Assembly (NCBI GenBank): GCA_902575375.1
Contig: CACGRD010000009.1
Coordinates: 1 to 39,046 of the forward strand
Direction of reading: 5' to 3'
DNA length: 39,046 nucleotides
Source: an uncultured Alphaproteobacteria bacterium
GTDB lineage: Bacteria; Pseudomonadota; Alphaproteobacteria; HIMB59; GCA-002718135
The position numbers and the translations under genes are program-made. Under the pieces are notes generated by a model that was not told the DNA's origin, did not search any database, and saw nothing but the letters and a program-made list of their open reading frames with translations. Position 1 is the first letter of the stretch. Each line of letters starts with the position of its first letter. Positions 12,018 to 34,540 of this stretch are shown here, in pieces.

Positions 12018-12024
12018 TTAAGAT

Positions 12025-13074: not shown

Positions 13075-14186
13075 TGTACTAAAGTTTCTGGATTAGCATA
13101 ATCATAATTTAAATCATCAGCAATAGCTTTATATGTAACGGCCCCTTTAAAAATATTTAAACCATTCATAAAATTTTTATCGTTTTTTAAAGCATCTTTA
13201 AAACCATTAGAAGCTAAGTTTTGAATAAATGGCAATGTGACTGCATTTAAAGCAAGAGTGGAAGTTCTAGGAACTCCCCCTGGCATATTTGCAACACAGT
13301 AATGAACAACATCATCAACAACATACGTAGGGTTTGCATGAGTTGTTGGTTTACTAGTTTCAACACAACCACCTTGATCAATTGCAACATCAACTATTAC
13401 AGATCCACTTTTCATCTTTTTGATCATGTCTTTAGTTATAATCTTTGGAGCATTAGAGCCTGGAACAAGTACGCCACCAATTAGTAAATCACATTCAGAA
13501 ATATAATCTTTTAGATTTATTTTATCGCTGTGTAGTGGTTCTATTTTATCACCAAATTTTTCTTGTAATTCTTCTAATCTTTTTTCTGATTTATCCACGA
13601 TGAAAACTTTTGCTTGCATTCCGGTAGCAATTATTGCTGCATTTTCACCTACAACACCTCCACCTAAAATTAAGACATTTCCAGGTTGAACCCCGGGCGC
13701 ACCCCCTAAAAGTAAACCACTTCCACCCTTATGTTTTTCGAGAGAATATGCTCCGGCTTGTATCGACATTCTACCGGCTACAGCGCTCATTGGTGCTAAT
13801 AGAGGTAATTTATTATTATGATCACTTACCGTTTCATAAGCTATACAAATTGAATTTGAATCAATTAAACCCTTTGTTAATTCTGGAGCTGCTGAAAGAT
13901 GTAAATAAGTAAATAAAATTTGGTTTTCTCTTATCATTGCAACTTCATTCATTAGAGGTTCTTTTACTTTTACGATCATTTCAGAATCATTGAAAATATC
14001 TTCAGCTGAATTTACAATTTTTGCCCCTGATAATTCATAGTCACTATTAGAAAAGCCAGCACCAATACCAGCATCTTTTTGAATTAGAACTTTATGTTTA
14101 TTCTTTACTAATTCTTTAACACTTAGCGGAGTAAGCCCAACCCTAGACTCCTGAGCTTTAATCTCAGAGGGAACACCTATTTTCAT
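13071..14186 (-). CDS. ald: Alanine dehydrogenase
   Basis: 371 aa, MKIGVPSEIKAQESRVGLTPLSVKELV..., ILGGGVVGENAAIIATGMQAKVFIVDKS Rossmann motif, VVDVAIDQGGCVETSKPTTH. Confidence 0.93.
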   Translation of the reverse strand: MKIGVPSEIKAQESRVGLTPLSVKELVKNKHKVLIQKDAGIGAGFSNSDYELSGAKIVNSAEDIFNDSEMIVKVKEPLMNEVAMIRENQILFTYLHLSAAPELTKGLIDSNSICIAYETVSDHNNKLPLLAPMSAVAGRMSIQAGAYSLEKHKGGSGLLLGGAPGVQPGNVLILGGGVVGENAAIIATGMQAKVFIVDKSEKRLEELQEKFGDKIEPLHSDKINLKDYISECDLLIGGVLVPGSNAPKIITKDMIKKMKSGSVIVDVAIDQGGCVETSKPTTHANPTYVVDDVVHYCVANMPGGVPRTSTLALNAVTLPFIQNLASNGFKDALKNDKNFMNGLNIFKGAVTYKAIADDLNYDYANPETLVH

Positions 14187-15526
14187 TATCTATCATGCAT
14201 ATAGTTTGAGATACCTGTTCTTAATTTTTCAATTATCTCATCAATATGTTTTTTTTCACAAGTAAATGGAGGTGCAACAATTAAACAATCACCTGTTGCT
14301 TTCAAGCTTAAGCCTGCTTCGAATAATTTTTTAAAACAAGCATATCCAGCTTTACCTAAACGCTCATCCATTTTAATATCAATTCCTCCCATCATTCCAT
14401 ATCCTCTTATATCAGTGATAATATCTAAATCTTTCAATGAAAATAAACCATCTAAGAAATATGGAGACATATCTTTTGCTCTATTAAATAAATCTTCTTT
14501 CTCGATTATATCTTGCATTGCTAAACCTGCTGCCATTGAAACAGGGATAGCAGAATAAGTATAACCATGAAAAAATTCTATAGCTCCTGTAGGTGAAGCA
14601 TCAACAATAGTATCATAGATATGGTCACGTGAAGCTACTGCTCCTAAGGGTACGACACCATTAGTAATTGCTTTAGCCATTGTCATGATATCAGGGCAAA
14701 CATCAAAAGCTTGAGCTGCAAATGGAGCGCCCATTCTTCCCCAACCGGTAATAACTTCATCAAAAATTAAAAGAATTCCGTGCTTATCACAAATTTCTCT
14801 TAGTCTTTTTAAATATCCTTTTGGCGGAACTAAAGTTCCTGTTGATCCTGCTACCGGCTCAACAATACATGCAGCAATATTTTCTGCACCAATGTTACCA
14901 GCAATTCTTTCAAGATCATCTGCAAGATCAGCGCCTGTTTCAGGTTCACCTTTTACAAATAAATTTTCAGGTAAGTGAGTATGTCTTAGATGATGTACAT
15001 TTGGCATAAGAATATTTGAGAAAGTTTTTCTATTAGCAATCATTCCACCAACAGAAATTCCTCCAATATTCATTCCATGATAACCTCTTTCTCTTCCTAC
15101 TATATGAGATCTATGACCTTCTCCTTTTGCTTTAAAATATGCTATGGCTGTTTTAATTGCTGTTTCTACAGCTGATGAACCACAAATAGTAAAAAATATT
15201 TTATTTAAATCTTCAGGTGTATGTTTTGAAACTTTTCTAGCTAAATCAAATGAACCGCCAAAACCTTGTTGAAATGGTTGAACATAATCTAATTGCTCTA
15301 ATTGTTTTGATACTGCTTCTCTTATTTCTGGTCTTGAATGACCAGCTGGACTACAAAATAATCCTGAACTGGCATCAATTAATTTATTACCATAATGATC
15401 AGTATAATAAACACCTTCAGCCTTAACCATTAATCTTGGACTATTTTTATAATCTCTATTGGATGTAAATGGCATCCAATGCTCTTCTAATGAATTAGGT
15501 ATTTCAATTCTTTTTTCTAAATCCAT
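14186..15526 (-). CDS. Class III PLP aminotransferase, omega-amino acid (beta-alanine/taurine):pyruvate aminotransferase-like
   Basis: 446 aa with LLIFDEVITGWGRMG, MTMAKAITNGVVPLGAV and FFHGYTYSAIPVSMAAGLA, as in omega-amino acid:pyruvate aminotransferases. Stop overlaps the start of ald. Confidence 0.85.
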   Translation of the reverse strand: MDLEKRIEIPNSLEEHWMPFTSNRDYKNSPRLMVKAEGVYYTDHYGNKLIDASSGLFCSPAGHSRPEIREAVSKQLEQLDYVQPFQQGFGGSFDLARKVSKHTPEDLNKIFFTICGSSAVETAIKTAIAYFKAKGEGHRSHIVGRERGYHGMNIGGISVGGMIANRKTFSNILMPNVHHLRHTHLPENLFVKGEPETGADLADDLERIAGNIGAENIAACIVEPVAGSTGTLVPPKGYLKRLREICDKHGILLIFDEVITGWGRMGAPFAAQAFDVCPDIMTMAKAITNGVVPLGAVASRDHIYDTIVDASPTGAIEFFHGYTYSAIPVSMAAGLAMQDIIEKEDLFNRAKDMSPYFLDGLFSLKDLDIITDIRGYGMMGGIDIKMDERLGKAGYACFKKLFEAGLSLKATGDCLIVAPPFTCEKKHIDEIIEKLRTGISNYMHDR

Positions 15527-15576
15527 TTTTTTCCTTATTAAGGATTGAGTATATGAAATTATCGATAAATCAAAGA

Positions 15577-15602
15577 ATATTTCTTACACAATAAAGAAAT
15601 AT
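15577..15602. promoter_or_regulatory. Inverted repeat in the divergent aminotransferase/pta promoter
   Basis: ATATTTCTT(15577-15585)-8 nt-AAGAAATAT(15594-15602), perfect 9-bp arms between the divergent genes starting at 15526 and 15645. Confidence 0.45.
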
Positions 15603-15644
15603 CATAGGAAAAATTGTAGCAGTGGTATAGAGAGAATACCAAAT

Positions 15645-16544
15645 ATGAGAACATTACCAAAAGATCTCAAAAGTAAAGCTTTGAAGACTCCTAACATACC
15701 CGCAGTTGTTGTATGTCCTAATCAAGAAAGCATCTTATCGGCTGTAATTGAGGGTAAAAATATGAACCTCATCGATCCAACCTTAATTGGTAATAAAAGT
15801 TTAATTTCCAAAACGGCGAAAAATTTAAGTTTGGATATTTCAAATTTTAATATTGTAGAAGCAAAAGATGAAGAAAATAGTGCTTTAGTTGCTTGTCAAA
15901 TGTCTAATGAAAATAGAAGTAAAATCATAATTAAAGGGAACCTACATACTGATATTTTAATGCGCTCTTATTTAAAAAAAGAATTTAATCTGCTTGATGG
16001 CAGACGATTAAGTCATATCTGGCATATGACTACACCACAACTTAAAAAACCTCTTTTTATCACTGACGGTGCCCTGAATGTTTTGCCAAGAGTTGATATA
16101 AAATTACAGATTCTCAAAAATGCTGTTCAGTTTTATAATAAATTAAACAATAACAAACCAAAAGTTGCAATTTTATCAGGTACAGAAGATCCAATTGAAA
16201 GTATGCCAAGTTCAGTTGATGCAAAAAAAGTTATGGAACTTGCGTTTAAAGAAAATATTAATGCATTTATTCATGGTCCACTTGCTTTTGATAATGCTGT
16301 TTCTGAGGAAGCAGCTACAATAAAAGGAATTAAAAATGATGTTGCAGGTGATGCTGATATATTATTAGTACCTAATTTAGAAACTGGAAATTCTTTATCT
16401 AAAATAATGGTTTATTTTATGAACGCTTGTGCTGCAGGAATAGTAATTGGTGGTAAAGTACCAGTTGTTGTTCCTAGTAGAGCTGATAGTAAATATTCTA
16501 AACTTGCATCAATTATGGCAGCTGTTGTCGCTGCAAATAATTAA
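15645..16544 (+). CDS. pta: Phosphate acetyl/acyl-transferase (short Pta/Ptb type)
   Basis: 299 aa, PTA_PTB fold features: SHIWHMTTPQLKKPLFITDGALNVLP, GPLAFDNAVS, GDADILLVPNLETGNSLSKIMVYF, GGKVPVVVPSRADS. Confidence 0.82.
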   Translation: MRTLPKDLKSKALKTPNIPAVVVCPNQESILSAVIEGKNMNLIDPTLIGNKSLISKTAKNLSLDISNFNIVEAKDEENSALVACQMSNENRSKIIIKGNLHTDILMRSYLKKEFNLLDGRRLSHIWHMTTPQLKKPLFITDGALNVLPRVDIKLQILKNAVQFYNKLNNNKPKVAILSGTEDPIESMPSSVDAKKVMELAFKENINAFIHGPLAFDNAVSEEAATIKGIKNDVAGDADILLVPNLETGNSLSKIMVYFMNACAAGIVIGGKVPVVVPSRADSKYSKLASIMAAVVAANN

Positions 16545-17425: not shown

Positions 17426-18499
17426 CTACTTTAAAACATCTAATCCATCAGATAAATTGATATGTCCTGTTTGACGAGCTTTATTAAACTCTTTAATTCT
17501 GTCAAATATATTGATTCCAATTTGTCTATAAATATCAAGTAAATCAATTAAGACCCAATTTTCTCTAATCAAACCATTTTCTAGCCTCCAGAAATCTAGA
17601 CTTCTCATTTCTAGTGCTTGATTTGATGGAGCAATACCCATCCAGCCATCATTGGTTATTGTTAATCTCATATTAGGCCAACCTGTTTCACACACATAAT
17701 TTCCTTCATGTATCCAGTGTGTTTGCAAATCTTCCATGCCATCGGTGGCTAATTTTTCATTTGATGAACCACCTTTTCTATCTGGCATTGCTCTTAAAAA
17801 TGGGATTTGATGCCAATGTCTGAAACCTGCTATACCTCTACCTGTTCCAATTCCGGCTGGTCCGTACCAATTAAGATTTGGGTGCCAATATTTTTCTAGA
17901 TTCATAATTTTTGGATCTGGATTTTTAGGATGTAAGGATAAATCATTTAACATATCTATAACATGATCAAAATTTTCTTTCTTTTCTCCATTTATTGACA
18001 AGCCATCTCCAGTCATAGGAGCTGGGGTACACAGAAATGCACCAAGTTGAGGAGACATTGGCCATGCATTTGCTTGCATCATAATTTCAGGTAAGTCCCA
18101 AATAGATTGTACTTCAGTAATTTTATTTTCCTCTATTTTAAAAAACTCATGATAGCGCATATGAATTAAATTGCCTGTTGGTGGAATATCTAAGTATGGT
18201 TTTATAAAAGTTCCCATATAATTACCCATTGTACCTATCCATTTTTGCCCTTCAGGGGTTTTTCCCGCCATAATAATCATATCTCTTCTTTCTAGATCAG
18301 GGATACTATCCAATAATGGCAAAATACATTTAGAAAGAAAATTATTTAAACCTTTAAAAGTTCCAAAAGGATGGCAAAAATTAAATAAAGATTCTTTTGT
18401 AAAATAATTGCTTAATGATTTTTCAATTGTCTTTTTGTTAAATGTTTGAGTTGCAATCTGATAGTTGGCAAAAAAATTTTTTAATTCTCTAGAAATCAT
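17426..18499 (-). CDS. Double NTF2/SnoaL-like domain protein (copy 1)
   Basis: 357 aa with motifs LERRDMIIMAGK, KYWHPNLNWYGPAGIGTGRGIAGFRHWHQIPF and LIRENWVLIDLLDIYRQIGINIF. Two repeats visible; paralog of 27683..28780. Confidence 0.75.
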   Translation of the reverse strand: MISRELKNFFANYQIATQTFNKKTIEKSLSNYFTKESLFNFCHPFGTFKGLNNFLSKCILPLLDSIPDLERRDMIIMAGKTPEGQKWIGTMGNYMGTFIKPYLDIPPTGNLIHMRYHEFFKIEENKITEVQSIWDLPEIMMQANAWPMSPQLGAFLCTPAPMTGDGLSINGEKKENFDHVIDMLNDLSLHPKNPDPKIMNLEKYWHPNLNWYGPAGIGTGRGIAGFRHWHQIPFLRAMPDRKGGSSNEKLATDGMEDLQTHWIHEGNYVCETGWPNMRLTITNDGWMGIAPSNQALEMRSLDFWRLENGLIRENWVLIDLLDIYRQIGINIFDRIKEFNKARQTGHINLSDGLDVLK

Positions 18500-19266
18500 T
18501 ATTTAGCAGTCCATCCTCCATCAATTACTAATGAAGAGCCAGTTATCATCGATGCAGCATCAGAAGCAAGATACACTACTGCACTAGCAATATCACTTTC
18601 TGTTGCTACTTTTCCTAAAGGTATATTTTCAATAACAGATTTTTTAAAATTTTTATCTTTGAAAAATTTTTTAACCATAGGAGTTTCAACAAATGTAGGG
18701 CAAACTGAATTAACTCTAATGTTGTGTTTTGCTAAATCGATAGCCATTCCTTTAGTTAGACCTTCAACGCCAAACTTGGTCATATTGTAAACACTTCTAA
18801 GAGGAGCTCCAACTTTACCTAACTGAGATGAAATATTTATAATTGATCCACCACTTTTTTTTCTATTTGTTGATTTTAGCATAATTTTTGTTGCTAATTG
18901 AGCAATATCAAATGATGCTTTAATATTAAGATCAACCACTTCACTCATATCTTTTCTTTTAATTTTAGTAAAATATTCTGGCCTATTTGTTCCAGCGTTA
19001 TTTACTAATATGTCTAATTTTGGAATTTTAGAAAATATTTTTTTTATTTCTTTTAAATTTGTTACATCACAAACAAAGTAGTTGCATTTTCTTTTAATTT
19101 TTTTAATTTGGTTTTTAACAGCTATAAGATCTTTTTCTGTTCTACTTATAATTATTAAATTTGCTCCAGCTTCTGCCAGTGCGATTGCAGATGCTTTACC
19201 AATCCCTTTACCTGCACCTGTAACAAGCGCAGTCTTATCTTTTACTTCGAATTTTTTTAGAAACAT
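18499..19266 (-). CDS. Short-chain dehydrogenase/reductase
   Basis: 255 aa with TGAGKGIG, NNAG, S...YNMTK and GSSLVIDGGWTAK. Confidence 0.9.
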   Translation of the reverse strand: MFLKKFEVKDKTALVTGAGKGIGKASAIALAEAGANLIIISRTEKDLIAVKNQIKKIKRKCNYFVCDVTNLKEIKKIFSKIPKLDILVNNAGTNRPEYFTKIKRKDMSEVVDLNIKASFDIAQLATKIMLKSTNRKKSGGSIINISSQLGKVGAPLRSVYNMTKFGVEGLTKGMAIDLAKHNIRVNSVCPTFVETPMVKKFFKDKNFKKSVIENIPLGKVATESDIASAVVYLASDAASMITGSSLVIDGGWTAK

Positions 19267-19279
19267 TTATGCGTATAAT

Positions 19280-19939
19280 TTACAATGAAAAAATGGTTTG
19301 ATCTAATAAATTCATTTTTTTGATGCACATATCAAATTTATCTTCTTTGTGAAAATCACCTGGAAATGCAATACATTTAACACTTGCATTAACAGCGGCA
19401 TTACTACTTTCCTCTGTATCTTCAATTGCAAGACATTCTTCAGGTTTTAAATTTAATTTTTCTAGTGTTACTTTATATATCTCTGGATGAGGTTTTTCAT
19501 TGTTAACAAATGATCTATTTCCAATAAAATCAAAATCCGCTTTTGAAATTTGATTAGAAAGACTTTCAAATACAGCTTCTACATTATTTACAGTTGTAGA
19601 AGTTGAGAATGCAAGTTTAATATTATAATCTTTAGTATATCTAATCATTTCATAAACACTTTCTCTTAATTTTTGTTTGTTTTGAATAATGAATGAACTA
19701 AATAATTCTGTTTTTCTATCTCTAATTTGTGATGCATTAACATTGATATTATTTTTTTCTGCAAAATCTTCTACTCTCTTAGTGCCACCTGATTTTTTTA
19801 ATAAAATTCTATAATCTTGCTCGTCCCAATACCAATCTAAACCAGCTTCTTTAAAGGCTTCGTTAAATGAATTACGTTGGATATTAGAAGATTCAATCAG
19901 TGTTCCAATTGATCCAAAAAGTAATGCTTTGTATTTCAT
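19280..19939 (-). CDS. HAD-superfamily-like protein with degenerate catalytic motif I
   Basis: 219 aa beta-PGM/CbbY-like layout (NEKPHPEIY, CLAIEDTEES), but motif I reads LFGSIGTL instead of LFDxDGTL. Confidence 0.8.
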   Translation of the reverse strand: MKYKALLFGSIGTLIESSNIQRNSFNEAFKEAGLDWYWDEQDYRILLKKSGGTKRVEDFAEKNNINVNASQIRDRKTELFSSFIIQNKQKLRESVYEMIRYTKDYNIKLAFSTSTTVNNVEAVFESLSNQISKADFDFIGNRSFVNNEKPHPEIYKVTLEKLNLKPEECLAIEDTEESSNAAVNASVKCIAFPGDFHKEDKFDMCIKKMNLLDQTIFSL

Positions 19940-19973
19940 CTTATAATTTTAATAAATAATTATCATATTATTG

Positions 19974-21107
19974 TTAACCCTTTACTGCACCTTGAGTTAA
20001 ACCAGACACTATTTGTTTTTGGAAAAACATCACTAACAAAAACAATGGTGCGGTAATTGATGCAGCAGCAGCAATTGACTCAACTAAATCTGTCATTTTA
20101 GTTTCCATATTAAAATATTGCATAATTGCTGGAACCATAGTTTGTGATTGTCCATCTAATAATAATGCTGCAACAAGATAATCATTATAAGCTAACAAGA
20201 AAGAAAATAATCCTGTTGTAATTACACCTGGCCACATTAAAGGCATCACAACTTTCCAGAAAGCTTGAAAAGGATTACATCCATCAATTTGAGCAGCTTC
20301 ATCTAAATCTTGAGGTATATTCATAAAAAATGATCTCAGCATCCATATTGTAAAAGGTTGGTTAATAGCTACTAACAAAACAATAACAGCAATTTTTTTT
20401 CCATATAATCCATAATTTATAAAAGGTTCTAAATAACCAGTAACCAAAACAGAATGAGGTAAGGCTCTAAAAATTAAAGCAAAAATTAAAAGCCAAAAGG
20501 CAATCATAGAATTACTTCTTGCTAATCCATAACCAGCTAGTGTTCCAACAGTTAATGAAATTGTAACAACCCCACCTGTTACAATCATAGTATTTAAGAA
20601 TTGTTTATAAAATTCATTACCAACCCAAACAGACAAATAATGCTGAGGAGTAAAACCTATGATTGGGTAAGAAAAAATTTTTAAGAATTCTAAATTTGAA
20701 AATAATATATTTACAAATTCAGATAAATTATTTTGAATTAAAAAAAATAATATGAAGGAAATAGTTATATATAAAATGAATAAAATGAAAAAAGTAATTA
20801 AAGAAAATTTTAAAATAGGATTAATTAAATCAAATAAAATTTTTCTTATTTGGTATAATTTATAAAACAAATAAATTGATAGAAAAAGAAAAATAAAGTT
20901 AACAAAAGATAGACCTCCAACCTGTTCTTTTGTGCTTGGACCAATTATTACCTTTAAAGGATTGGAAGCAAAAGAATCAACAGGAAGTTTTATTGACATT
21001 ACAACAATCCATAAGAAAGGGAATAAAGCAATTATACACCACGTAATTATTGTAATTGAAACAATAATTTTAAGAGGCGTGGTTAAGTTAAAAAGTTTAC
21101 TTTCCAT
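19974..21107 (-). CDS. Carbohydrate-type ABC transporter permease (MalG-like) with extra N-terminal TM insertion
   Basis: 377 aa with EAAQIDGCNPFQAFWKVVMPLMWPGV (EAA loop). About 100 aa extra hydrophobic sequence before the conserved core. Confidence 0.9.
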   Translation of the reverse strand: MESKLFNLTTPLKIIVSITIITWCIIALFPFLWIVVMSIKLPVDSFASNPLKVIIGPSTKEQVGGLSFVNFIFLFLSIYLFYKLYQIRKILFDLINPILKFSLITFFILFILYITISFILFFLIQNNLSEFVNILFSNLEFLKIFSYPIIGFTPQHYLSVWVGNEFYKQFLNTMIVTGGVVTISLTVGTLAGYGLARSNSMIAFWLLIFALIFRALPHSVLVTGYLEPFINYGLYGKKIAVIVLLVAINQPFTIWMLRSFFMNIPQDLDEAAQIDGCNPFQAFWKVVMPLMWPGVITTGLFSFLLAYNDYLVAALLLDGQSQTMVPAIMQYFNMETKMTDLVESIAAAASITAPLFLLVMFFQKQIVSGLTQGAVKG

Positions 21108-22126
21108 TATAATCTTTTTTCTTTTTGCTCTTTAAAAGTTCTTCTTAAAACTGGAATTAATATTATTATAATTCCTATCATTGTAAGAACAGAAGTAGCT
21201 GATGCTCTTCCAATAGATCTTGTTCCAGAATCATCAATTCTCAAGAAATCATAAGTCATCCATTGTAATGAAATCCTAAATCCAGAAGCACTAAAACCAA
21301 CAATTTCATCAAAAACTCGATATGAATCCATTAAATGAATTAAAGCAACAAATACTATTAATGGCATGATATGCGGAATTATAATAAATCTTAAACGCTG
21401 AAGTCTATTTGCCCCATCTACAAATGCTGCCTCAATTTTTTCTTTATCGACAGTTTGTAGTCCTGCATAAAAAATAACAAAGGCAAAAGGTATAGTGTGC
21501 CAAACTCTATAAAAAAGCATTAGAATCTCTATCGTCCAGCCTTGAGAAAATAGGGCAATATCTTTATCTAAAATATTTTCTAAAAATAAAGTTAATATAC
21601 CATCTCCTATAAATAACCATTTTATTGATAAAGCACCTATTACAGGTGTAATTATAAATGGGAGCAAGGTTATAAAAATTATTGGACCTTTCAATCTATT
21701 AATTAAAACATTAACGCATAGAGCTAATATTAAACCTAAGATTATTACAAATGGTAAAGTAATAAATGTAAATGTTAGTGTAAACCTTAGAGCTTTATAA
21801 AAATCAATAGATCTTATTTTACTCCATTCAAAACCATCATTTGAAATAACAGATGATAATTGTTGAAATTTCAAAATATTTTTATAATTTTGAAAGCCTA
21901 CCCAAATATTATTTTTTATTTTATTTCCATTTTCATCTAATACAGGAACGGTAATTGTTTCTGTTTTACATCCAAAAGGATCGCAATTTTCTCTTTCAAT
22001 CGTTTCTAATACATCTTGGTTGAATTGAAAACTTTGAATTAAAACTATTAGAAGAGGTAAGGCAATAAATAATGTCATCATTATAAATGATGGCATTGTA
22101 AAAACTAAAAAAGTAGATTTTTTCAT
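21107..22126 (-). CDS. Carbohydrate-type ABC transporter permease (MalF-like)
   Basis: 339 aa with EAAFVDGANRLQRLRFIIIPHIMPLI (EAA loop). Periplasmic insert containing CDPFGC. Confidence 0.9.
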   Translation of the reverse strand: MKKSTFLVFTMPSFIMMTLFIALPLLIVLIQSFQFNQDVLETIERENCDPFGCKTETITVPVLDENGNKIKNNIWVGFQNYKNILKFQQLSSVISNDGFEWSKIRSIDFYKALRFTLTFTFITLPFVIILGLILALCVNVLINRLKGPIIFITLLPFIITPVIGALSIKWLFIGDGILTLFLENILDKDIALFSQGWTIEILMLFYRVWHTIPFAFVIFYAGLQTVDKEKIEAAFVDGANRLQRLRFIIIPHIMPLIVFVALIHLMDSYRVFDEIVGFSASGFRISLQWMTYDFLRIDDSGTRSIGRASATSVLTMIGIIIILIPVLRRTFKEQKEKRL

Positions 22127-22132
22127 TTACTA

Positions 22133-22170
22133 ATATTACCCCCCTTAAGATTTTAAAAGGGGAGTAATAT
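22133..22170 (-). terminator. Stem-loop between SBP gene and permease genes (attenuator/terminator)
   Basis: 14-bp stem 22133-22146/22157-22170. The single imperfect position (140/163) is C-A on + but G.U on the minus-strand RNA, consistent with minus-strand function. Confidence 0.7.
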
Positions 22171-22184
22171 ACAATTATATAAAA

Positions 22185-23399
22185 TTATAAGAGACCTTTT
22201 TCTGTTGCTGCAGTAATATAATCAGCCTCAATTTTTTCTAGAGTAGCTTTTGCAGTAGCTGCGCCAGTCAAATAATCACCAATAGCAGCACCTAAGACTC
22301 CATGGAGTGTGCTCATTTTTGCTGATGCAGGATAAGGAGCTGCTCCAGATTTTGCAGTTAAAATTGCACCAATATTTGATGGAGCTGGATCAAACGCATT
22401 AGACAGCCAAGGAGCAGCTTCAGGGTTCGCTCCTAAGTTTGCTGGATCTAATCCAACCATAGCTAGTTTAAATGCTGCTTCTGCTTCTTCATCAGTAACA
22501 TTTTTAGCTATAACAACACCATCCCACCATAATGTAGATGCTGGTTTACCATTCTTTTTTGCTTTAGGCGCTGATGCAAACTTTACTAATCCAACAACTG
22601 TTGACTCCTCTGCATTGTCCATAGCACCAGCTCGAGACGCCCAAAGGTTTGCAAGAGCAATCTTACCCTGTTGGAATTGTTGTTGAACATATGTAGAATC
22701 TGAAGTTAAATACTCAGGATCCATATATTCTGTTAGTTTTTTCATCATCTTAAGTGTTTCATAGCCATCGTTATTATTAACTGCTGGCATATTTCCATCA
22801 AAAAAAGAATCAGCAAAACCCAAATACATATTTACAAATTCTTCTCCTAAATTCCAACCTGACTTGAATGTTCCGCCAAGTGGATAATCTACAACTCCAG
22901 CATCTTTAATAACTTTAGCAGCTTTCAAAAGCTCGTCATAAGTTGTTGGAATATCTATACCAAGATCACTCAAAATATCTTCTCTGTAAAATAAATGTTG
23001 AGCATTTGTCATCATTGCAATTGCCATAATTTTTCCATCAATTACAATTTTTTGATTATCTTGTAGAGAGTCTCCATATTTAGCAACTAGATCGTCAAGT
23101 GGTCTAGTTACACCAGCATCAAGAACCGATACATTTGTAGAAGCTGAAACACCTGCCATTGTAAATTGAGATGGGTTGCTTTCTAATGATGCAACAAGCT
23201 TATCTCTGTATTCTTGATCAAGTGTAGGTGTAAAATTTCCACACTCTTCCATAGCAGAAGTAACAACTTTCCAGGCATCAAATCCTGCAGATAAAGAAGT
23301 TACTGGTACAGAATTGTTTAGCTCGCAAGCTTTTGCATTAGTACCGGCTAAGAAAAAAAATGATGTGAAAATCGCAAATAATACTAGTATTTTTTTCAT
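22185..23399 (-). CDS. ABC transporter substrate-binding protein, family 1 (carbohydrate type)
   Basis: 404 aa, signal peptide, TTYDELLKAAKVIKDAG, QQQFQQGKIALANLWASRAGAM, directly upstream of MalF/MalG-like permeases. Confidence 0.88.
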   Translation of the reverse strand: MKKILVLFAIFTSFFFLAGTNAKACELNNSVPVTSLSAGFDAWKVVTSAMEECGNFTPTLDQEYRDKLVASLESNPSQFTMAGVSASTNVSVLDAGVTRPLDDLVAKYGDSLQDNQKIVIDGKIMAIAMMTNAQHLFYREDILSDLGIDIPTTYDELLKAAKVIKDAGVVDYPLGGTFKSGWNLGEEFVNMYLGFADSFFDGNMPAVNNNDGYETLKMMKKLTEYMDPEYLTSDSTYVQQQFQQGKIALANLWASRAGAMDNAEESTVVGLVKFASAPKAKKNGKPASTLWWDGVVIAKNVTDEEAEAAFKLAMVGLDPANLGANPEAAPWLSNAFDPAPSNIGAILTAKSGAAPYPASAKMSTLHGVLGAAIGDYLTGAATAKATLEKIEADYITAATEKGLL

Positions 23400-23457
23400 T
23401 TGTTTCCCCTATAATTTATTAATATATTAATTTATAATATTTTATTAATGCAACAGT

Positions 23458-23473
23458 TTGAATAATTATTCAA
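23458..23473. promoter_or_regulatory. Candidate LacI-family operator
   Basis: Perfect 16-bp palindrome TTGAATAATTATTCAA between divergent SBP and lacI-type genes; the same TTGAATA/TATTCAA element recurs at 27621-27635. Confidence 0.65.
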
Positions 23474-23499
23474 GCATTTGCATACATAAAAAAGGAAAA

Positions 23500-24498
23500 A
23501 TGATGAATAAAAATGCCACATCCCAAGATGTCGCAAAATTAGCAGGAGTATCTCAATCAGCTGTTTCAAGATGTTTTACTAAAGGTGCAAGCATCTCAAG
23601 CAGGACAAAACTAAGGGTTCTTGAAGCTGCCAAAAAACTAAAATATAAACCACAAACTTTTTTACAAGATTCTCAAAATATTGAAGATAGTGGACTAGTG
23701 GGAGTTATTTTACCTTATATAACCAATCGATTTTATCCAGAGGTATTAACTGAATTGCATGAAGCGCTACGTTTATCAGGTTTTAGAATTTTATTGATAA
23801 CAACTGATGATGGTGAAGAATTAGACGATAAGCTCATTCAGCCATATTTGAAAGAAAGATTAGTTGCAATAATTTCAGCAACTAAACCAACAGATCATTT
23901 TGTTGAAAATTGCTTAAATAAAAAGATTCAAATTATAGCCTATAATAGAGCTTGGGATATCCCTACTATAAGTTCAGTTGCATGTAATCATAGATTTGGT
24001 GGTGAATTAATTGCAGATCAAATAATCAAAAATAACCATCAGGAAGTTGGTTTAATTGAAGGTCCCACAGGATCTTATGTAAGTAATGAAAGATGTAAAG
24101 GATTTAAAAATAAATTAAAAAAATCAAAAAAATTAAAATTATACTCTCAAAAAGGAAATTTTACATATGAAGGTGGCTATGCTGCAACAGCAAAAATCTT
24201 AACGAATAAAAAAATCTCAGCTATTTTTTGTGCAGATGATACGATGGCATTTGGATGTTTAGATTACATTAAAAAAAATACAAAAATTGAAATACCTAAC
24301 GATATTGAAATATTTGGATATGACGATATCTCAATGGCAAACTGGTCATCTTACAATTTAAGTACTGTAAAACAGCCCTTGAGACAAATGTCAAAATTAG
24401 TAACTCAACTTATTAATGATAATATTAAAGATCCAGATTATGAGGCCGTTAGTCATTTAATCCAAGGAACGTTAATAAAAAGAAAAACATCTAGATAA
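23500..24498 (+). CDS. LacI-family transcriptional regulator
   Basis: N-terminal HTH TSQDVAKLAGVSQSAVSRCF plus periplasmic-binding-like domain. The ORF track start (TTG 23458) lies on the palindrome; ATG at 23500/23503 follows AAAGGA and fits HTH position. Confidence 0.9.
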   Translation: MMNKNATSQDVAKLAGVSQSAVSRCFTKGASISSRTKLRVLEAAKKLKYKPQTFLQDSQNIEDSGLVGVILPYITNRFYPEVLTELHEALRLSGFRILLITTDDGEELDDKLIQPYLKERLVAIISATKPTDHFVENCLNKKIQIIAYNRAWDIPTISSVACNHRFGGELIADQIIKNNHQEVGLIEGPTGSYVSNERCKGFKNKLKKSKKLKLYSQKGNFTYEGGYAATAKILTNKKISAIFCADDTMAFGCLDYIKKNTKIEIPNDIEIFGYDDISMANWSSYNLSTVKQPLRQMSKLVTQLINDNIKDPDYEAVSHLIQGTLIKRKTSR

Positions 24499-24499
24499 A

Positions 24500-25627
24500 T
24501 TATATAACTTTGTTTGCTAATTTAGTTCCTTCAACTAAAGAATGAAGTTTTTCATAACAAATATTTTCATCAATTTTGCCAAATCCTGCAAAAGTACTAA
24601 ATCCGCAATCAGTTCCAGCCATTAGTTGGTCTTTTGGAATTACCGTTGAAAACTGAATTAATCTATCTGCTACTACCTCAGGGTGCTCAACAAAATTTGA
24701 TGTTGAATCGATAACACCAGGAACTAAAACTTTATCTTTTGGTAATTTAATATCTTGAAAAACTTTCCACTCATGTGCGTGTCTGGGATTTGATGACTCA
24801 ATTAAAAAATATTTAATTTTAGATTTTAAAATTATTGGTAATATTTTTTCTAGTGGGATATCATGTGTATGAGGTCCTTCATAGTTTCCCCAACAAATAT
24901 GCATTCTAGTCATATTAACATCTACATTAGTTAAAGCTTCATTCAAACACTCAATTTGAATTTCCGCACGTTTTAAAAATTCTTGTTCGGATAATTCCTT
25001 AAAATTCATATGTCTAGCTAATGCAAGATCAGGACAATCTAATTGCACTTGTATATTTGATTTAGTAATTGTCTCATACTCAATAGCCATAATTTCTGAA
25101 AGTTTATGTAAATATTCATCATCTGTTTTATAAAACCTATTTGGCATAAATACATTTATGACACCTGGTGATGCAGCATTCATAAATGCTTTTTGATGAT
25201 TGTTTTTATCTAATGAATTTTTAAAATTCTCTAAGTCTTTATTTAATGAATCTTTATCTTTGATTTTTAATGCATTAGTACAACACGGTCTGCTATACGT
25301 TGGTGTACCCCCACTTTTAGCTATTTTTTCTTTATACTCTGGAAAATCATCTAAATCAGCTGGTGCTCTTCTTTCACTTTCTCCAGAAAAACCATCTATC
25401 CTATCTTTTATATAAGTGGCATAACTTATTTTACTCATTTCACCGTCACTTATATAATCAATACCAACTTCGATCTGTTTTTTAACAATTGTCTCAACAT
25501 TTTTTTTCAATATATTATTGAAATCTTCTTTAATAAATTTTTCACCCCGATCTTTAGAAAATAAAATTTCTGAAAGTCCTTTTGATCTAGGCAAGCTGCC
25601 TACATGTGTAGTTAATATTTTAGACAT
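24500..25627 (-). CDS. MetE-like Zn-dependent methyl/alkyltransferase (cobalamin-independent methionine synthase / epoxyalkane:CoM transferase-like superfamily)
   Basis: 375 aa with THVGSLPR N-terminus and Zn-ligand pattern MHICWGNY (HxC), FLIESSN (E), GTDCGFS (C). Confidence 0.8.
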   Translation of the reverse strand: MSKILTTHVGSLPRSKGLSEILFSKDRGEKFIKEDFNNILKKNVETIVKKQIEVGIDYISDGEMSKISYATYIKDRIDGFSGESERRAPADLDDFPEYKEKIAKSGGTPTYSRPCCTNALKIKDKDSLNKDLENFKNSLDKNNHQKAFMNAASPGVINVFMPNRFYKTDDEYLHKLSEIMAIEYETITKSNIQVQLDCPDLALARHMNFKELSEQEFLKRAEIQIECLNEALTNVDVNMTRMHICWGNYEGPHTHDIPLEKILPIILKSKIKYFLIESSNPRHAHEWKVFQDIKLPKDKVLVPGVIDSTSNFVEHPEVVADRLIQFSTVIPKDQLMAGTDCGFSTFAGFGKIDENICYEKLHSLVEGTKLANKVI

Positions 25628-25634
25628 TTTTTAA

Positions 25635-26609
25635 TTAACCTGTTTTTATCAAGATTTGTTTCCAAATTGCAGTTTCATCAAATAAAACCCATTCGTTCTT
25701 TATACCTCTTGGTCCTATTTCGGCATGATTAATTCCCATAATATAAATCTCAGAATTAGAAGCTTGCCCAAATATACCATTCCCACTGTGCTTCCCAACT
25801 AAAGACCAGCGTATAGCAACTTTTTTTGGTTGATTTTCTTCTACAGTAAAACTTTTATGTTCTATTCTAAAAAGAGCATCTGGGAAAGATTGTCTTAAAT
25901 TTAGCCAGAAATTTGTTACATCATCGATACCATAACAAACAAAACCTCCTGGTTGAAATTGTTGAACTGATCTGTCATATTTTTTTTCAATTGTAGATTT
26001 AGAATTAATATTAAGAATGTTTTCTAAATTTTCTGCATATTGATCAGCTATATTATTTTTTGATAAAATTGGTGGTGTATAACTTGATTCTTGAGATGAA
26101 TTCTTATCAAATGGTTTAATGCAATTCTTTATTCCACCTTCTTGTTTTATTAAAATTGCTGCATATTTTTTTGGATCTATTTCTAGCTGTCTAACAATTG
26201 CTCCTTGATCTCTAACTAACCATTCATCATAAACTTGATTATTCTTACAAGCGCAGTCAGCAATGACTCTGTATACAAGTTTTTTATTTGTTGCTTTCCC
26301 ATATAAACCATCTTTTACATGAGTGGCTTTACTAAGAATTCTATGAGAAGATAAAAACCCTTCATCTTCGTTACCAATCCAAATTACATCTTCACCTAAT
26401 AATTGCCTATCTGGAAATTCGTCTAAAGTTGCATTAGTTGCATCAACTACTGTATTAGGTCCATAAATGATTCCCATAGGTGATCTAACAGGAATATTTT
26501 CAGCATAATATTCCATAATTGAGTTAACATCTTTTTCTTCCCATATCTGATGAGTTATTTTTAGAATATAATCTGGAAGATTTTCAAACTTGTTATTAAA
26601 ACCTTTCAT
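25635..26609 (-). CDS. Double NTF2/SnoaL-like domain protein (copy 2)
   Basis: 324 aa. Two NTF2-like halves (about 1-150 and 185-324), e.g. IWEEKDVNSIMEYYAENI and VAIRWSLVGKHSGNGIFGQASNSEIYIMGINHAEIG. Confidence 0.65.
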   Translation of the reverse strand: MKGFNNKFENLPDYILKITHQIWEEKDVNSIMEYYAENIPVRSPMGIIYGPNTVVDATNATLDEFPDRQLLGEDVIWIGNEDEGFLSSHRILSKATHVKDGLYGKATNKKLVYRVIADCACKNNQVYDEWLVRDQGAIVRQLEIDPKKYAAILIKQEGGIKNCIKPFDKNSSQESSYTPPILSKNNIADQYAENLENILNINSKSTIEKKYDRSVQQFQPGGFVCYGIDDVTNFWLNLRQSFPDALFRIEHKSFTVEENQPKKVAIRWSLVGKHSGNGIFGQASNSEIYIMGINHAEIGPRGIKNEWVLFDETAIWKQILIKTG

Positions 26610-26621
26610 ATAACTGAATTC

Positions 26622-27593
26622 TTAATTTGTTTGTCTTATAATAAATAAATTTCCATCCTCATCACTTATCTGCTTAATTGATCGTGATGAGTTTTTTGGT
26701 ACTGAAAAAGTATCCTTGTCCTTAATTACTACTTTCTCTCCATCACAATCTATTTCCCATTCACCAGATAAACAATGATATACTTCTGATTTCTCAAATT
26801 TGTATTCATGTATATGGGCATTTTTTCCATGGAGAAGTGAAAGGCTAAATCCTGTTAAATGCGGTATGTTTGGAATAAATGATTTATTATGAATATTAAA
26901 TTGATCAAGGTAATTAATAATTTTATTGGATTGATAGTGTTCATCATCAACAAAGTATTTATCTTTTTCATCAAATCGAATGACAAACTTTTCTATATCT
27001 TCTGAGGAATAATGATCAAAACTCTTTAATTCATCTTCTTTTAATGGTTGAATAATTTTAGTTTCATCAGTAATTTTCTGTTTTTCTGTATCTACTAAAG
27101 AATTATCATTCATTAATACCATACCAGAATCTTTTGCATCTTTTAAAAGTTTTGGAGTCCAGGTGATTACACCTGGATCATTTTCACCTAAAACTACAAA
27201 CATTAACGCTTCTTCTTTGCTTACATTTTGAAAACCTCTAAACATATTTGTAGGGAAAGAAGCAATATCACCTTTTTTAAGTATTACCTCTCCTTCTGTG
27301 CCATCAACTCCCCAATAGAAACGCCAAGCACCAGAATGAATTATAAATACTTCAGCAGTTGTATGGCTATGTAATCCAGAACCGTTCATTGGAGCAGCAC
27401 TTACAGCTCCAATATTGAAGCCATGCGCTTCAGCTATTTTAACATTTTGTTTAGCATCTTCACTAACACCTGGGCCTATTACAGAATAATTTTTCCTATC
27501 TTGATGTCCCTTTAATTTTCCTTCTACAAAAGGAATAGTACTTGGAATAAGTTCCTCAAATTTTGCTAATCTTGTAGTAATATTAATTGACAT
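26622..27593 (-). CDS. Two-domain cupin protein
   Basis: 323 aa. Cupin motifs: domain 1 GSGLHSHTTAEVFIIHSGAWRFYWG...KGDIASFPTNMFRGFQN; domain 2 HIHEYKFEKSEVYHCLSGEWEI. Confidence 0.82.
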   Translation of the reverse strand: MSINITTRLAKFEELIPSTIPFVEGKLKGHQDRKNYSVIGPGVSEDAKQNVKIAEAHGFNIGAVSAAPMNGSGLHSHTTAEVFIIHSGAWRFYWGVDGTEGEVILKKGDIASFPTNMFRGFQNVSKEEALMFVVLGENDPGVITWTPKLLKDAKDSGMVLMNDNSLVDTEKQKITDETKIIQPLKEDELKSFDHYSSEDIEKFVIRFDEKDKYFVDDEHYQSNKIINYLDQFNIHNKSFIPNIPHLTGFSLSLLHGKNAHIHEYKFEKSEVYHCLSGEWEIDCDGEKVVIKDKDTFSVPKNSSRSIKQISDEDGNLFIIRQTN

Positions 27594-27620
27594 ATCTTTA
27601 TGATATTTTATTCATTTTTT

Positions 27621-27653
27621 TTGAATATTATTCAAATTATTGAATAAATCAAT
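27621..27653. promoter_or_regulatory. Candidate LacI-family operator array (two or three overlapping palindromes)
   Basis: TTGAATATTATTCAA (27621-27635), TTATTCAA-ATTA-TTGAATAA (27628-27647) and ATTGA-N5-TCAAT (27639-27653) in the divergent cupin/SnoaL-hpsN promoter. Confidence 0.6.
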
Positions 27654-27682
27654 TAATATTTATTAGTATGTAAATAATTTTT

Positions 27683-28780
27683 ATGACAAATAAAATTGAA
27701 GATTTTGAAACAGGGGAAAAAGAAAACAAGAAAATAATTTTTGTAGATTTAAGTACAAGTGAAAATTTAGAAAATAAAAAAAAATTTAAATATTTATTAA
27801 ATAAAGTTGCTGAATCTCCTTTAGATGAATTAGGAGTTAATTTAAAAAACTTATACCATGAAGAAGCTGAATTAAATGCTTTTCATCCAATAAATGAAAT
27901 AAGTGGTGTTGAGAATATAAAAAATAAACTTTGGATACCTCTAAAAGAAGCTTTTCCAGATCTCGAAAGAAGAAATATAATTGTAATTGGAGGATCTTAT
28001 AGAGACAAAGTATTTGTATCGTTTGTTAGCTATCTAACTGGAACATTTGTCAACGAATGGCTCGGTGTTATACCCACAAAAAAAAATATTTATCTTAGAA
28101 CTTGCGAAGCTCATCAAATCTCTAATGGTAAAATTATAAAATCATATGTTTTAATTGATACAGTTGATTTTATTAGACAAGCTGGACACTGGCCAATTAA
28201 TAAATCTTTAGGAGCAGAAGGTATGTGGTCAGCGCCTATTACTGGAGATGGAGAAAATAATGAAAATTTTGACAACGAATTATCTTTAGAATCTTTAAAT
28301 CAAGCATTAACCATGCAGCGAAGTTTAAATATTAAGCCCGAAAGTGATCCAAACTCAAACAAAGATTATATAAGAGATAAATTACTTAATCATCCTCAAA
28401 AAAATTATTGGCATCCAAAAATGATGTGGCACGGACCTGCAGGAATAGGAACTGCAAGAGGTTTAAAAGGATATGTAGAATATCATCAACTTCCATTTAG
28501 ACTTACATTTAAAGAAAGGGATTATTGGAAAATTGGACATTATATTGAAATTGGTGATGGTAATTATTCAATGACTGGAGGTTGGCATAGCATAGAATGC
28601 ATTCATGGTTCAAAAGAATGGTTAGGTTATGAGCCAACTAATAAAAAAATTACAATAAGAGTTATGGATTTTTATTTACATCATGAAGGGCTGATTAGAG
28701 AAAATTGGGTACCAATCGATATAGCACATATACTAGATCAAATAGGTGTTGATATCTTTAAATTAATTCATAAAAAATAA
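27683..28780 (+). CDS. Double NTF2/SnoaL-like domain protein (copy 3)
   Basis: 365 aa with [43 protein letters not shown] and [23 protein letters not shown]. Ends 2 nt before hpsN. Confidence 0.75.
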
Positions 28781-28782
28781 TT

Positions 28783-30102
28783 ATGGCAATTGAATATTTA
28801 AAAAAAGGATTAGATGAAAAACAAAGAATTGAAGATAATGATAAGGTAAAAAAAATTGTTGAGGAAACATTAAGTAAAATTGAGTCAGAAGGTGATAAAC
28901 ACATTAGAGAGTTATCTCAAAAATTTGATAACTATTCACCAGTTAGTTTTAGGTTAAATGAAGATCAAATTAATCAATTAATCAGTGAAGTCTCTGATGA
29001 TGATAAAGAAGATATTAAATTTGCTCAGAAACAAGTGCGCACGTTTGCTGAAGCACAACTAAAAACTTTAAATGAATTAGAAGTAGAAACGCACCCAGGT
29101 GTTATTCTTGGTCATAAGAATATACCTGTACAAGCAGTCGGTTGCTACGTTCCGGCTGGTAAATTTCCAATGGTGGCTTCTGCACATATGTCAGTTGTTA
29201 CTGCCTCTGTTGCTGGGGTCCCAAGAATTGTAGCCACTACTCCACCTTTTAAAGGTAAACCAAATCCAGCAGTTGTAACAGCAATGAAAATGGGTGGTGC
29301 TCACGAAATTTATGTTTTAGGAGGAATGCAAGGAGTTGGTGCAATGGCTATTGGTACAGAAACTATTAAACCAGTCGATATGCTTGTTGGACCTGGCAAT
29401 GCATTTGTTGCTGAAGCGAAAAGACAATTGTATGGCAAAGTTGGTATCGATTTATTTGCTGGTCCAACTGAAACAATGGTTATTGCTGATGAAACTGTTG
29501 ATGGTGAAATATGTGCAACTGATCTATTAGGACAAGCTGAACATGGATATAATTCTCCTGCTGTAATGATAACAAACTCAAGAAAACTTGCAGAAGAAAC
29601 ATTTAAAGAAATTGAAAGAATTTTAGAAATTTTACCTACTAAAGAAACAGCAAGTAAAAGCTGGAGAGATTATGGGGAAATTATTTTATGTGACACCTAT
29701 GAAGAGATGTTATCTAAAGCAAATGAAATAGCTTCAGAGCACGTTCAAGTAATGACAAAAAAAGATGATTGGTTTTTGGCAAATATGACTACTTACGGCG
29801 CTTTATTTTTGGGTGCTAGAACCAATGTTGCTAACGGTGACAAAGTGATAGGCACTAACCATACACTTCCTACTAAAAAAGCTGGAAGATATACTGGTGG
29901 TTTATGGGTTGGTAAGTTTATTAAAACACACACTTATCAAAAGATTACGACAGATGAAGCTGCCACTCTCATCGGAGAATATGGATCTAGGCTTTCACAT
30001 TTAGAAGGTTTTATAGGTCATGCAGAACAATGTAATGTAAGAGTAAGACGATATGGGAAAAAAAATGTTGGATATGGAAAACCAGCAGGAGAAAAAATTT
30101 AG
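28783..30102 (+). CDS. hpsN: Sulfopropanediol 3-dehydrogenase (HpsN-like, histidinol dehydrogenase superfamily)
   Basis: 439 aa HisD-superfamily protein. From memory it closely matches roseobacter HpsN ([96 protein letters not shown]). Neighbours are ComDE and Xsc, not his genes. Confidence 0.85.
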
Positions 30103-32770: not shown

Positions 32771-34540
32771 TTATTGAATTACTGTATCTTTAGGATCAAT
32801 TCCAGCCACTTCAACTGGTGCTTTCATAGCATCTCTTCTAAAAGGTTCTCCTAATTCTTGATTTAACATTACTTCTATAAAAGTAGTAATACCTTCCATT
32901 TGATCCTTGCAAGATTGTTGCAAGGCTTCTGTTAGTTCCTCTTGAGTGTAAACTTTAACACCCTTAAATCCACACGCTTCTGCAATCTTTGCATAGCTTA
33001 ATTTAGGATCAAGTTCAGTTCCAACAAAATTATTATTATACCAAAGAGTAGTATTTCTTTTCTCCGCTCCCCACTGATAATTTCTAAAAATTATCATTGT
33101 AATATCTGGCCAACCATCTCTATTGCAAGAAGTCATTTCACTCATACTAATTCCAAATGCACCATCGCCCGCAAAGCCTACTACCGGTGTATTGGGACAA
33201 CCTATTTTTGCTCCAATTACAGATGGAAAACCATAACCACATGGTCCAAATAAACCAGGTGCCAAATACTTTCTACCATTCTCAAATGTTGGATAAGCAT
33301 TGCCGATTGCACAATTATTTCCTATATCACTTGATATAATTGCATCTTCAGGAAGACCTGCTTGAATAGCCCTCCATGCCATTCGTGGTGACATTTTCTC
33401 TGGTTCTCTGTCTCGTGAATCTTTATTCCAAGATGTTCCTGGATCATCTTCTTCATGATCAAGGCCAGTTAATGTTTGTAACCAAGCAGACTTTGTCTTA
33501 TGAATTAACTCCTCTCGTTCTTTTCTATCTTTATCACCTGCATTTAATGTAAGATTTTCTAAAATTTGTTTTGCAACTAGTTTTGCATCTCCACAAATAC
33601 CAACACTTATTTTTTTTGTTAAACCAATGCGATCAGAATTGATATCAACTTGAATGACATCAGCATTTTTTGGCCAATAATCTATTCCATAACCTGGTAA
33701 AGTTGAGAAAGGATTTAATCTTGTGCCAAGTGCTAAAACTACATCTGCTTTAGATATTATTTCCATTGCTGCTTTAGATCCATTATATCCTAAAGGACCA
33801 ACCGCAAGGGGATGTTTACCAGGAAAACTATCATTGTGTTGGTATCCGCAGGCAACTGGAGCACTTAATTTTTCAGCAAGTTTTTTGCAATCATCAATAG
33901 CGTCAGCTAAAATCACTCCAGCACCAGATAAAATGACTGGGAATTTTGCATTAGATAAAAGATCAGCAGCTTCTTTAATTGCTTCTGTTCCCCCTGAAGG
34001 TCTTTCAAATTTAATTATAGGTGGCAAGTCAATATCAATAACTTGAGTCCAGAAATCTCTTGGTATATTTAATTGAGCAGGAGCAGATCCTTTAATAGCT
34101 TTTGAAATAACTCTATTTAAGACCTCTGCAACCCTGGAGGGATCTCTTACTTCTTCTTGATAACAGACCATATCTTTAAATAAGTTCATTTGTTCGACTT
34201 CTTGGAAGCCTCCTTGACCAATAGTTTTATTAGCTGCCTGAGGAGTAACTAAGAGCATTGGAGTATGATTCCAAAAAGCAGTTTTTATAGGTGTAACCAA
34301 GCCAGTTATACCAGGTCCATTTTGCGCAATACACATTGCGATTTTACCAGTTGATCTTGTATAGCCATCAGCCATAATTCCGCCGTTTGACTCATGAGCA
34401 ACATCCCAAAATGTTATTCCAGCTTTAGGAAAAAGATCTGATATTGGCATAAATGCCGAACCAATTATTCCAAAAGCGTGTTGAATACCGTGTTTTTGTA
34501 AAACTTTTACGAAAGCTTCTTCTGTTGTCATTTTTGCCAT
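32771..34540 (-). CDS. xsc: Sulfoacetaldehyde acetyltransferase
   Basis: 589 aa TPP enzyme. From memory it strongly matches Xsc (MTTEEAFVKVLQKHGIQHAFGIIGSAFMPISDLFPKAGITFWDVAHESNGG; QGGFQEVEQMNLFKDMVCYQEEVRDPSR). Confidence 0.95.
   Translation of the reverse strand: MAKMTTEEAFVKVLQKHGIQHAFGIIGSAFMPISDLFPKAGITFWDVAHESNGGIMADGYTRSTGKIAMCIAQNGPGITGLVTPIKTAFWNHTPMLLVTPQAANKTIGQGGFQEVEQMNLFKDMVCYQEEVRDPSRVAEVLNRVISKAIKGSAPAQLNIPRDFWTQVIDIDLPPIIKFERPSGGTEAIKEAADLLSNAKFPVILSGAGVILADAIDDCKKLAEKLSAPVACGYQHNDSFPGKHPLAVGPLGYNGSKAAMEIISKADVVLALGTRLNPFSTLPGYGIDYWPKNADVIQVDINSDRIGLTKKISVGICGDAKLVAKQILENLTLNAGDKDRKEREELIHKTKSAWLQTLTGLDHEEDDPGTSWNKDSRDREPEKMSPRMAWRAIQAGLPEDAIISSDIGNNCAIGNAYPTFENGRKYLAPGLFGPCGYGFPSVIGAKIGCPNTPVVGFAGDGAFGISMSEMTSCNRDGWPDITMIIFRNYQWGAEKRNTTLWYNNNFVGTELDPKLSYAKIAEACGFKGVKVYTQEELTEALQQSCKDQMEGITTFIEVMLNQELGEPFRRDAMKAPVEVAGIDPKDTVIQ

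Follow-up and report, generated by a model that had tools for sequence, protein, structure and literature searches.

A four-half-site array as the predicted operator of a LacI-family regulator with a degenerate hinge in marine Alphaproteobacteria

What does it mean when the arms of one palindrome recur in two divergent promoters of the same gene cluster? The question is raised by a stretch of 39,046 nucleotides (the window; contig CACGRD010000009.1 of GenBank assembly GCA_902575375.1) from an uncultured alphaproteobacterium, in which TTGAATA/TATTCAA palindromes lie between the genes for a LacI-family regulator and for the solute-binding protein (SBP) of an ATP-binding cassette (ABC) importer, and again between a cupin gene and a SnoaL-domain gene. 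We take the window and its relatives, which include MarineAlpha5_Bin5, AG-337-I02 and many AG- single-cell genomes of AT-rich marine Alphaproteobacteria, to belong to the HIMB59/AEGEAN-169 group. A preliminary description had read the palindromes as operators of one LacI regulon of three operons that handles a compound feeding 2,3-dihydroxypropane-1-sulfonate (DHPS) and sulfolactate metabolism. As judged from sequence comparison, it is very probably the adjacent LacI that binds these sites, and its control would be confined to its own cluster; the proposed link to DHPS does not fare as well.

Arrays at the divergent promoters

The two palindromes are TTGAATAATTATTCAA at 23458-23473 in the SBP/LacI promoter (I1) and TTGAATATTATTCAA at 27621-27635 in the cupin/SnoaL promoter (I2), both at the positions and in the divergent promoters given by the preliminary description. 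The pattern TTGAATA-N0-3-TATTCAA matches twice in the window against 0.02 matches expected, none of 100 dinucleotide shuffles reaches two, and pattern searches, by which specificity in the own genome was assessed, find no match beyond these two in its 1,093,231 bases (approximately 66% complete). The recurrence of one arm sequence in both promoters, on which the earlier proposal was built, is thereby borne out. Each palindrome is the core of an array of four half-sites, TKCAW-N4/5-WTGMA-N5/6-TKCAW-N4-WTGMA (Table 1), in which alternating half-sites follow each other at near-helical core-centre distances of 9-11-9 bp in I1 and 10-10-9 bp in I2. The further TTGAATA half-sites reported earlier at the cupin/SnoaL promoter do exist, but as part of a regular array at both promoters, and the last clear one ends at 27646, not at 27653. 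Likewise, the one-base difference between the two centres, earlier given as a caveat, is real and a conserved property of each promoter: the gap between half-site cores is 5 bp in 41/41 distinct cupin/SnoaL sequences and 6 bp in 50/52 SBP/LacI sequences. The array centres read TAATTA, TATTA, TTGATA and others; CG occurs in none, so an even palindrome with central CG is not found. A search with the everted 18-mer TATTCAANNNNTTGAATA at 2 mismatches was discarded as too loose in AT-rich DNA (61 matches in the own genome, 43 in the reversed control).

Conservation extends well beyond the window. Among 100 genomes of the family, 60 carry TTGAATA-N0-3-TATTCAA, mostly at the cluster locus, and background matches of the exact pattern amount to approximately 0.1-0.2 per genome. 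In distinct sequences from genomes with LacI, the 20 core positions agree with the array without exception in 49/52 cases for I1, 41/41 for I2 and 28/30 for a third divergent promoter (I3), while 0/500 dinucleotide shuffles of each promoter set contain a perfect array; the half-site cores are far less variable than their flanks (0.19, 0.15 and 0.05 versus 0.94, 0.76 and 0.54 bits). I3 is found only in B-type clusters, between an extra pair of divergent SnoaL genes. Between cluster types A and B, which lie between similar flanks, the SBP is 40% and the permeases 42-54% identical, and the operators are nonetheless kept. When 12 genomes were searched at up to two mismatches, all arrays with zero or one mismatch sat at the cluster. 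Apparent second sites in G028, G053, G066 and G052 fall within or at the edges of genes that have nothing to do with the cluster promoters, and were put down to chance. G002, a genome without LacI, has an exact copy of TTGAATAATTATTCAA (L141 7733-7748) upstream of genes for a rhodanese and for sulfur transport; this copy has no flanking half-sites and is probably a chance match too. Both the phylogenetic footprinting of the intergenic regions and the genome motif search proposed earlier thus come out in favour of the motif, which is conserved in orthologous promoters and absent elsewhere in the genome, so not at background density in other DNA. Perfect palindromes are generally common in AT-rich DNA and the exact pattern does turn up at its low background rate in unrelated places, yet coincidence as an explanation has a negligible probability and is already refuted by the shuffles, the genome search and the conservation in approximately 70 related loci.

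The array also disappears together with the regulator. In a second family of the order, 30 genomes carry the cupin ortholog, and a LacI ortholog is found only in G122 and G125; of the 28 cluster genomes without it, six are at least 90% complete. Arrays are kept at all three promoters of G122 and G125, and no intact array is present in any of the LacI-lacking second-family genomes that were read. Their cupin/SnoaL promoter can still be aligned, with TTGAATATTATTCAA turned into, for example, TTAAATATTATTTAA, and the half-site G/C positions match the LacI+ consensus at 100% in rows with LacI versus 11% in rows without. The first-family genome G002 has neither LacI nor an array at its cluster. Loci that end at a contig edge (L134, L180, L183, L189, L190 and L191) were left out of the LacI-loss counts. 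At L196-L209, LacI-lacking loci of the second family, the position that the missing LacI gene would have, between the SnoaL and SBP genes and upstream of the latter, is taken up by a conserved element around AGAGAAATSGTCGCGGAAA, possibly a new regulatory element; at L195 (G117) the cluster genes are split into short open frames, either a decaying locus or assembly errors.

The regulator and the form of its predicted operator

By its domains the regulator is still a member of the LacI family as far as its sequence tells: the LacI-type helix-turn-helix (HTH, PF00356) scores 45.9 bits against a cut-off of 27, PF13377, PF00532 and PF13407 all exceed their cut-offs in the effector domain, and the fold of that domain is predicted at high confidence. 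The gene starts at ATG 23500 or 23503, and a longer open reading frame (ORF) from TTG 23458 begins inside the operator. What marks the protein as a variant is the missing hinge helix. Across 55 distinct orthologues, the recognition helix GVSQSAVSR is invariant (per-column entropy 0.014 bits), the hinge is the most variable part (1.44 bits; rest of the protein, 0.53) and the motif PNxxARxL of the LacI/GalR hinge helix is absent, while most LacI paralogues in the same genomes retain PNxxAxxLAS-type hinges. AlphaFold2 predicts the window protein without a hinge helix (predicted local distance difference test below 50 at residues 53-62) and places a helix at residues 57-65 in a distant control. 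In a tree, a single long-branched clade holds the cluster LacI proteins of this order; it groups with the distant cluster proteins, away from almost every paralogue encoded in the same genomes. In the LacI family the central CG is contacted by insertion of a residue from the hinge, with rare exceptions (Camas et al., PMC2978694), and of 1303 LacI-family regulators 1251 have even palindromes as operators and 1173 a central CG (Ravcheev et al., PMC4052901). Given this contact, the loss of both hinge helix and CG centre is internally consistent.

Distant relatives of the regulator (31-39% identity) in other alphaproteobacterial families sit in homologous clusters of SBP, permease, SnoaL, dehydrogenase (59-84% identical), short-chain dehydrogenase, SnoaL2, cupin and MetE-like genes, several of which add an ABC ATPase, an abhydrolase and an RraA-like protein. 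They share the recognition helix of the window protein, reading VSQSAVSR in every case except one, which has VSRSAVSR. Sites of the TTGCATWCGWATGCAA type, of canonical length and with a CG centre, occur within 2 mismatches in 8/13 of these loci, and mononucleotide shuffles average 0.1-1.0 sites per locus even at three mismatches; the sites are single, have no flanking half-sites and share the half-site TTGCAT. In one relative, L240, LacI is paired with the candidate site TTGCATACGTATTCAA. With the same recognition helix facing canonical sites in these clusters, the operators of the order studied here can be read as TTGCATACGTATGCAA that has lost its CG centre and, in most half-sites, exchanged the outer C for A; the order still has some TTGCATA half-sites, one of them in the window. 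The single TTGCATWCGWATGCAA palindrome with CG centre and normal hinge is presumed to be the ancestral form.

How the arrays may be read

We therefore consider it highly likely that the arrays are four-unit operators of the adjacent LacI, a local regulator of its own cluster, which would bind them in a CytR-like form that relies on the HTH. The recognition helix would read WTGMA half-sites (TTGAA/TTGCA), four of which lie between two divergent promoters; owing to the near-helical spacing they would share about one face of the DNA, where a bound regulator is expected to block both promoters. From a presumed ancestor with a normal hinge helix, one dimer of which bound one CG-centred palindrome, this order would have arrived at a degenerate hinge, a centre of 5 or 6 bp without CG and added flanking half-sites, and these changes together make binding through HTH contacts of a flexibly linked regulator probable. 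Binding by LacI we infer strongly from what the sequences establish, namely the sites, their array, their specificity, their loss with LacI, the hinge degeneration and the operator form of relatives. Less firmly, two dimers may bind per array, and LacI may repress rather than activate both divergent promoters, its own included, until a metabolite of the imported compound relieves the repression. The broader proposition, that a LacI lineage without hinge helix or central CG contact uses four helically phased half-sites, probably through two flexibly linked dimers, and so represents a second, independent route to CytR-like DNA reading, we would give an even chance.

Several points weigh against operators of this kind. 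The array pattern was derived from the same sequences on which it was later tested, 5/13 distant loci have no TTGCATWCGWATGCAA site within 2 mismatches, and AlphaFold2 monomer predictions of hinges are weak evidence, with the hinge of the control also at low confidence (58-64). An AT mutational bias could have contributed to the loss of the CG centre, although the G/C bases of the half-sites are kept. LacI may have been lost independently no more than once or twice, and the locus of the two LacI+ second-family genomes was possibly received by transfer, the LacI of G122 grouping within first-family sequences in the LacI tree; the association of array and LacI holds in either case. The most serious competitor is a single canonical LacI dimer on the central palindrome, with the outer half-sites being conserved -35 promoter elements. 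TTGCAT and TTGAAT resemble -35 hexamers and adjoin plausible -10 sequences, the distant operators are single palindromes, and in the third promoter of genomes without LacI the outer half-sites are seemingly retained while the central pair is lost. However, the right outer half-site is lost too in the cupin/SnoaL promoter of these genomes, the outer half-sites stand at a fixed 4-5 bp from the centre in three unrelated promoters, and the one nearest LacI lies approximately 15 bp from the start codon, too near for the -35 element of a leadered transcript. We regard this explanation as doubtful, with a partial role of the outer half-sites as promoter elements being a live alternative.

That a different transcription factor binds the array, with LacI acting elsewhere or not at all, is far less plausible. 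The array and LacI are lost together, the array lies in the promoter of LacI itself, distant LacI proteins with the same recognition helix occur in clusters whose sites share a half-site, and a wider regulon would need arrays elsewhere, of which none were found in the genomes searched. Such a factor would account for a site that, by the survey figures above, is atypical for the LacI family in its missing CG centre and variable centre length.

For the favoured reading, with LacI on four half-sites, the nearest precedent is CytR of Enterobacteriales and Vibrionales, also a LacI-family protein, which the regulator resembles and whose likeness would have been reached independently here. In CytR the spacing between half-sites is relaxed, which has been ascribed to an interdomain linker that is flexible and unstructured (Jorgensen 1998, as cited in PMC5263246), and the pair of half-sites optimal for it, AATGYCAAC-GC-GTTGCATT (PMC3454398), is similar to the outer TKCAA-N4-WTGMA units of the arrays; the window arrays have a centre of 5 or 6 bp, and the linker of the window LacI is predicted coil from sequence and model. 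By model score, however, the window protein does not qualify as a CytR ortholog (NCBIfam NF008269, 135.2 bits versus a cut-off of 436, with RbsR-type models scoring higher), and CytR sites lie between CRP sites, rely on CRP and have half-site pairs that vary between genes, whereas the arrays described here repeat their four half-sites, with little change of phase, at two or three promoters. Features in common with canonical local LacI/GalR regulons (RegPrecise, PMC4052901) are the local control of transport and catabolism, the inverted repeats and a site in the promoter of the regulator gene. The distant clusters match this canonical form, CG centre included; the order studied here departs from it in the missing CG, two centre lengths within one regulon, the degenerate hinge and the four half-sites. 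The cre-var sites of clostridial CcpA (PMC5263246) are likewise inverted repeats with a variable spacer read by a LacI-family protein, but they have two half-sites over a wide spacer range and exist besides canonical cre.

The gene cluster and its dehydrogenase

The predicted regulon comprises, besides the gene for LacI, three operons: SBP/permease, cupin and SnoaL-dehydrogenase (Table 1). The three transcription units proposed earlier fit the ORF order from which they are predicted, and the array's conservation, restriction to the cluster and loss with LacI argue for one local regulon, as the preliminary description had suggested. The window cluster contains no ATPase gene, unlike several of the distant homologous clusters. 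Literature searches returned no description of the cluster.

Table 1 Features of the predicted regulon and its surroundings in the window.
Feature	Position	Strand	Remarks
Array I1, SBP/LacI divergent promoter	23447-23484		AATGCAA-CAGT-TTGAATA-AT-TATTCAA-GCAT-TTGCATA; spacers 4-2-4
I1 half-sites	23447-23453; 23458-23464; 23467-23473; 23478-23484		AATGCAA; TTGAATA; TATTCAA; TTGCATA
Array I2, cupin/SnoaL divergent promoter	27609-27646		TATTCAT-TTTTT-TTGAATA-T-TATTCAA-ATTA-TTGAATA; spacers 5-1-4
I2 half-sites	27609-27615; 27621-27627; 27629-27635; 27640-27646		TATTCAT; TTGAATA; TATTCAA; TTGAATA
LacI-family regulator	23500..24498	+	HTH and periplasmic-binding-like core present; hinge helix degenerate (residues ~50-62)
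SBP_bac_1 solute-binding protein of ABC importer	22185..23399	-	First gene of I1 leftward unit
ABC permease 1	21107..22126	-	
ABC permease 2	19974..21107	-	
HAD-family hydrolase	19280..19939	-	
Short-chain dehydrogenase	18499..19266	-	
SnoaL-domain protein	17426..18499	-	Last gene of SBP unit
Double-cupin protein	26622..27593	-	First gene of I2 leftward unit
SnoaL-domain protein	25635..26609	-	
MetE-like (Meth_synt_2) protein	24500..25627	-	
SnoaL-domain protein	27683..28780	+	First gene of I2 rightward unit
Histidinol-dehydrogenase-family enzyme	28783..30102	+	GKFPM motif; neither typical HpsN (GRYAH) nor biosynthetic HisD
xsc (sulfoacetaldehyde acetyltransferase)	32771-34540		

There are at least three cluster types (window 17426-30102; loci L032-L088 and L175-L194), in which strongly diverged transporter genes are swapped between conserved flanks; a genomic island or a site of allelic replacement is possible. 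Elsewhere in the window, at 10482-13074, a gene for a PehA-like phosphoric/sulfuric ester hydrolase lies beside a second MetE-like gene.

The preliminary description had taken the dehydrogenase for HpsN, the DHPS 3-dehydrogenase (CpHpsN, PDB 8v35), and the regulon for one that serves DHPS and sulfolactate metabolism. The enzyme does belong to the histidinol-dehydrogenase family of HpsN (PF00815, 445 bits), scores higher with HpsN structures (401 bits) than with HisD (260 bits), and keeps, in alignment with 8v35, identical zinc ligands and residues at the catalytic Glu318, His319 and Asp352. However, it has GKFPM in place of the diagnostic GRY(A/S)H of HpsN, in which His126 contacts the sulfonate (PMC11382572). 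GKFPM is found in 83 of the cluster enzymes read and GKYPL in five distant ones. The relatives in clusters of other alphaproteobacterial families, members of the same subfamily, have one or the other of these motifs, and in one such genome, G374, a GKFPM cluster enzyme coexists with a separate GRYAH HpsN. At the same place in 11 first-family loci (L178, L179, L181, L182, L183, L144, L051, L072, L077, L082 and L138), the enzyme is replaced by a GRYNN type of 428-432 residues. The GRYNN enzyme is approximately 47% identical to the GKFPM dehydrogenase and scores higher against HpsN (522 bits). Biosynthetic HisD was also considered and rejected, because HisD structures score below HpsN and, among the relatives searched, most of those with more complete genomes encode a separate HisD-like protein of 29-36% identity. 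Counted over 12 other genomes, 11 have a distinct protein of this kind, at 29-38% identity. The GKFPM motif, the coexistence with GRYAH HpsN and the separate HisD-like proteins together point to a third subfamily.

Genes for alanine dehydrogenase, omega-aminotransferase and phosphotransacylase (window 13071-16544) flank the cluster together with xsc. Their nearness would suit a DHPS regulon, but the genome pattern search finds no array near xsc, and the flanking genes suggest that taurine is broken down by neighbours of the cluster that lack the LacI array. With the sulfonate-binding motif replaced, the subfamily shared with other families and no array near xsc, the claim that the cluster feeds DHPS or sulfolactate metabolism is not upheld, and we consider it improbable.

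A conserved alphaproteobacterial cluster, whose substrate is probably not DHPS, is recognizable by the GKFPM subfamily in company with SnoaL, cupin, MetE-like and short-chain dehydrogenase proteins, to which distant clusters add RraA-like ones. This corrects a likely mis-annotation, in that annotation by itself is no ground for counting the cluster towards DHPS degradation. For an abundant, little-studied order of ocean bacteria, the arrays provide a complete predicted regulon. They also offer a natural series for the role of the hinge helix, from a canonical hinge with CG centre, through a degenerate hinge with a half-site array, to a lost LacI with a decayed array. If the proposed mode of binding is true, this LacI lineage would be an independent arrival at CytR-like DNA reading, visible against relatives that have the canonical operator and the same recognition helix.

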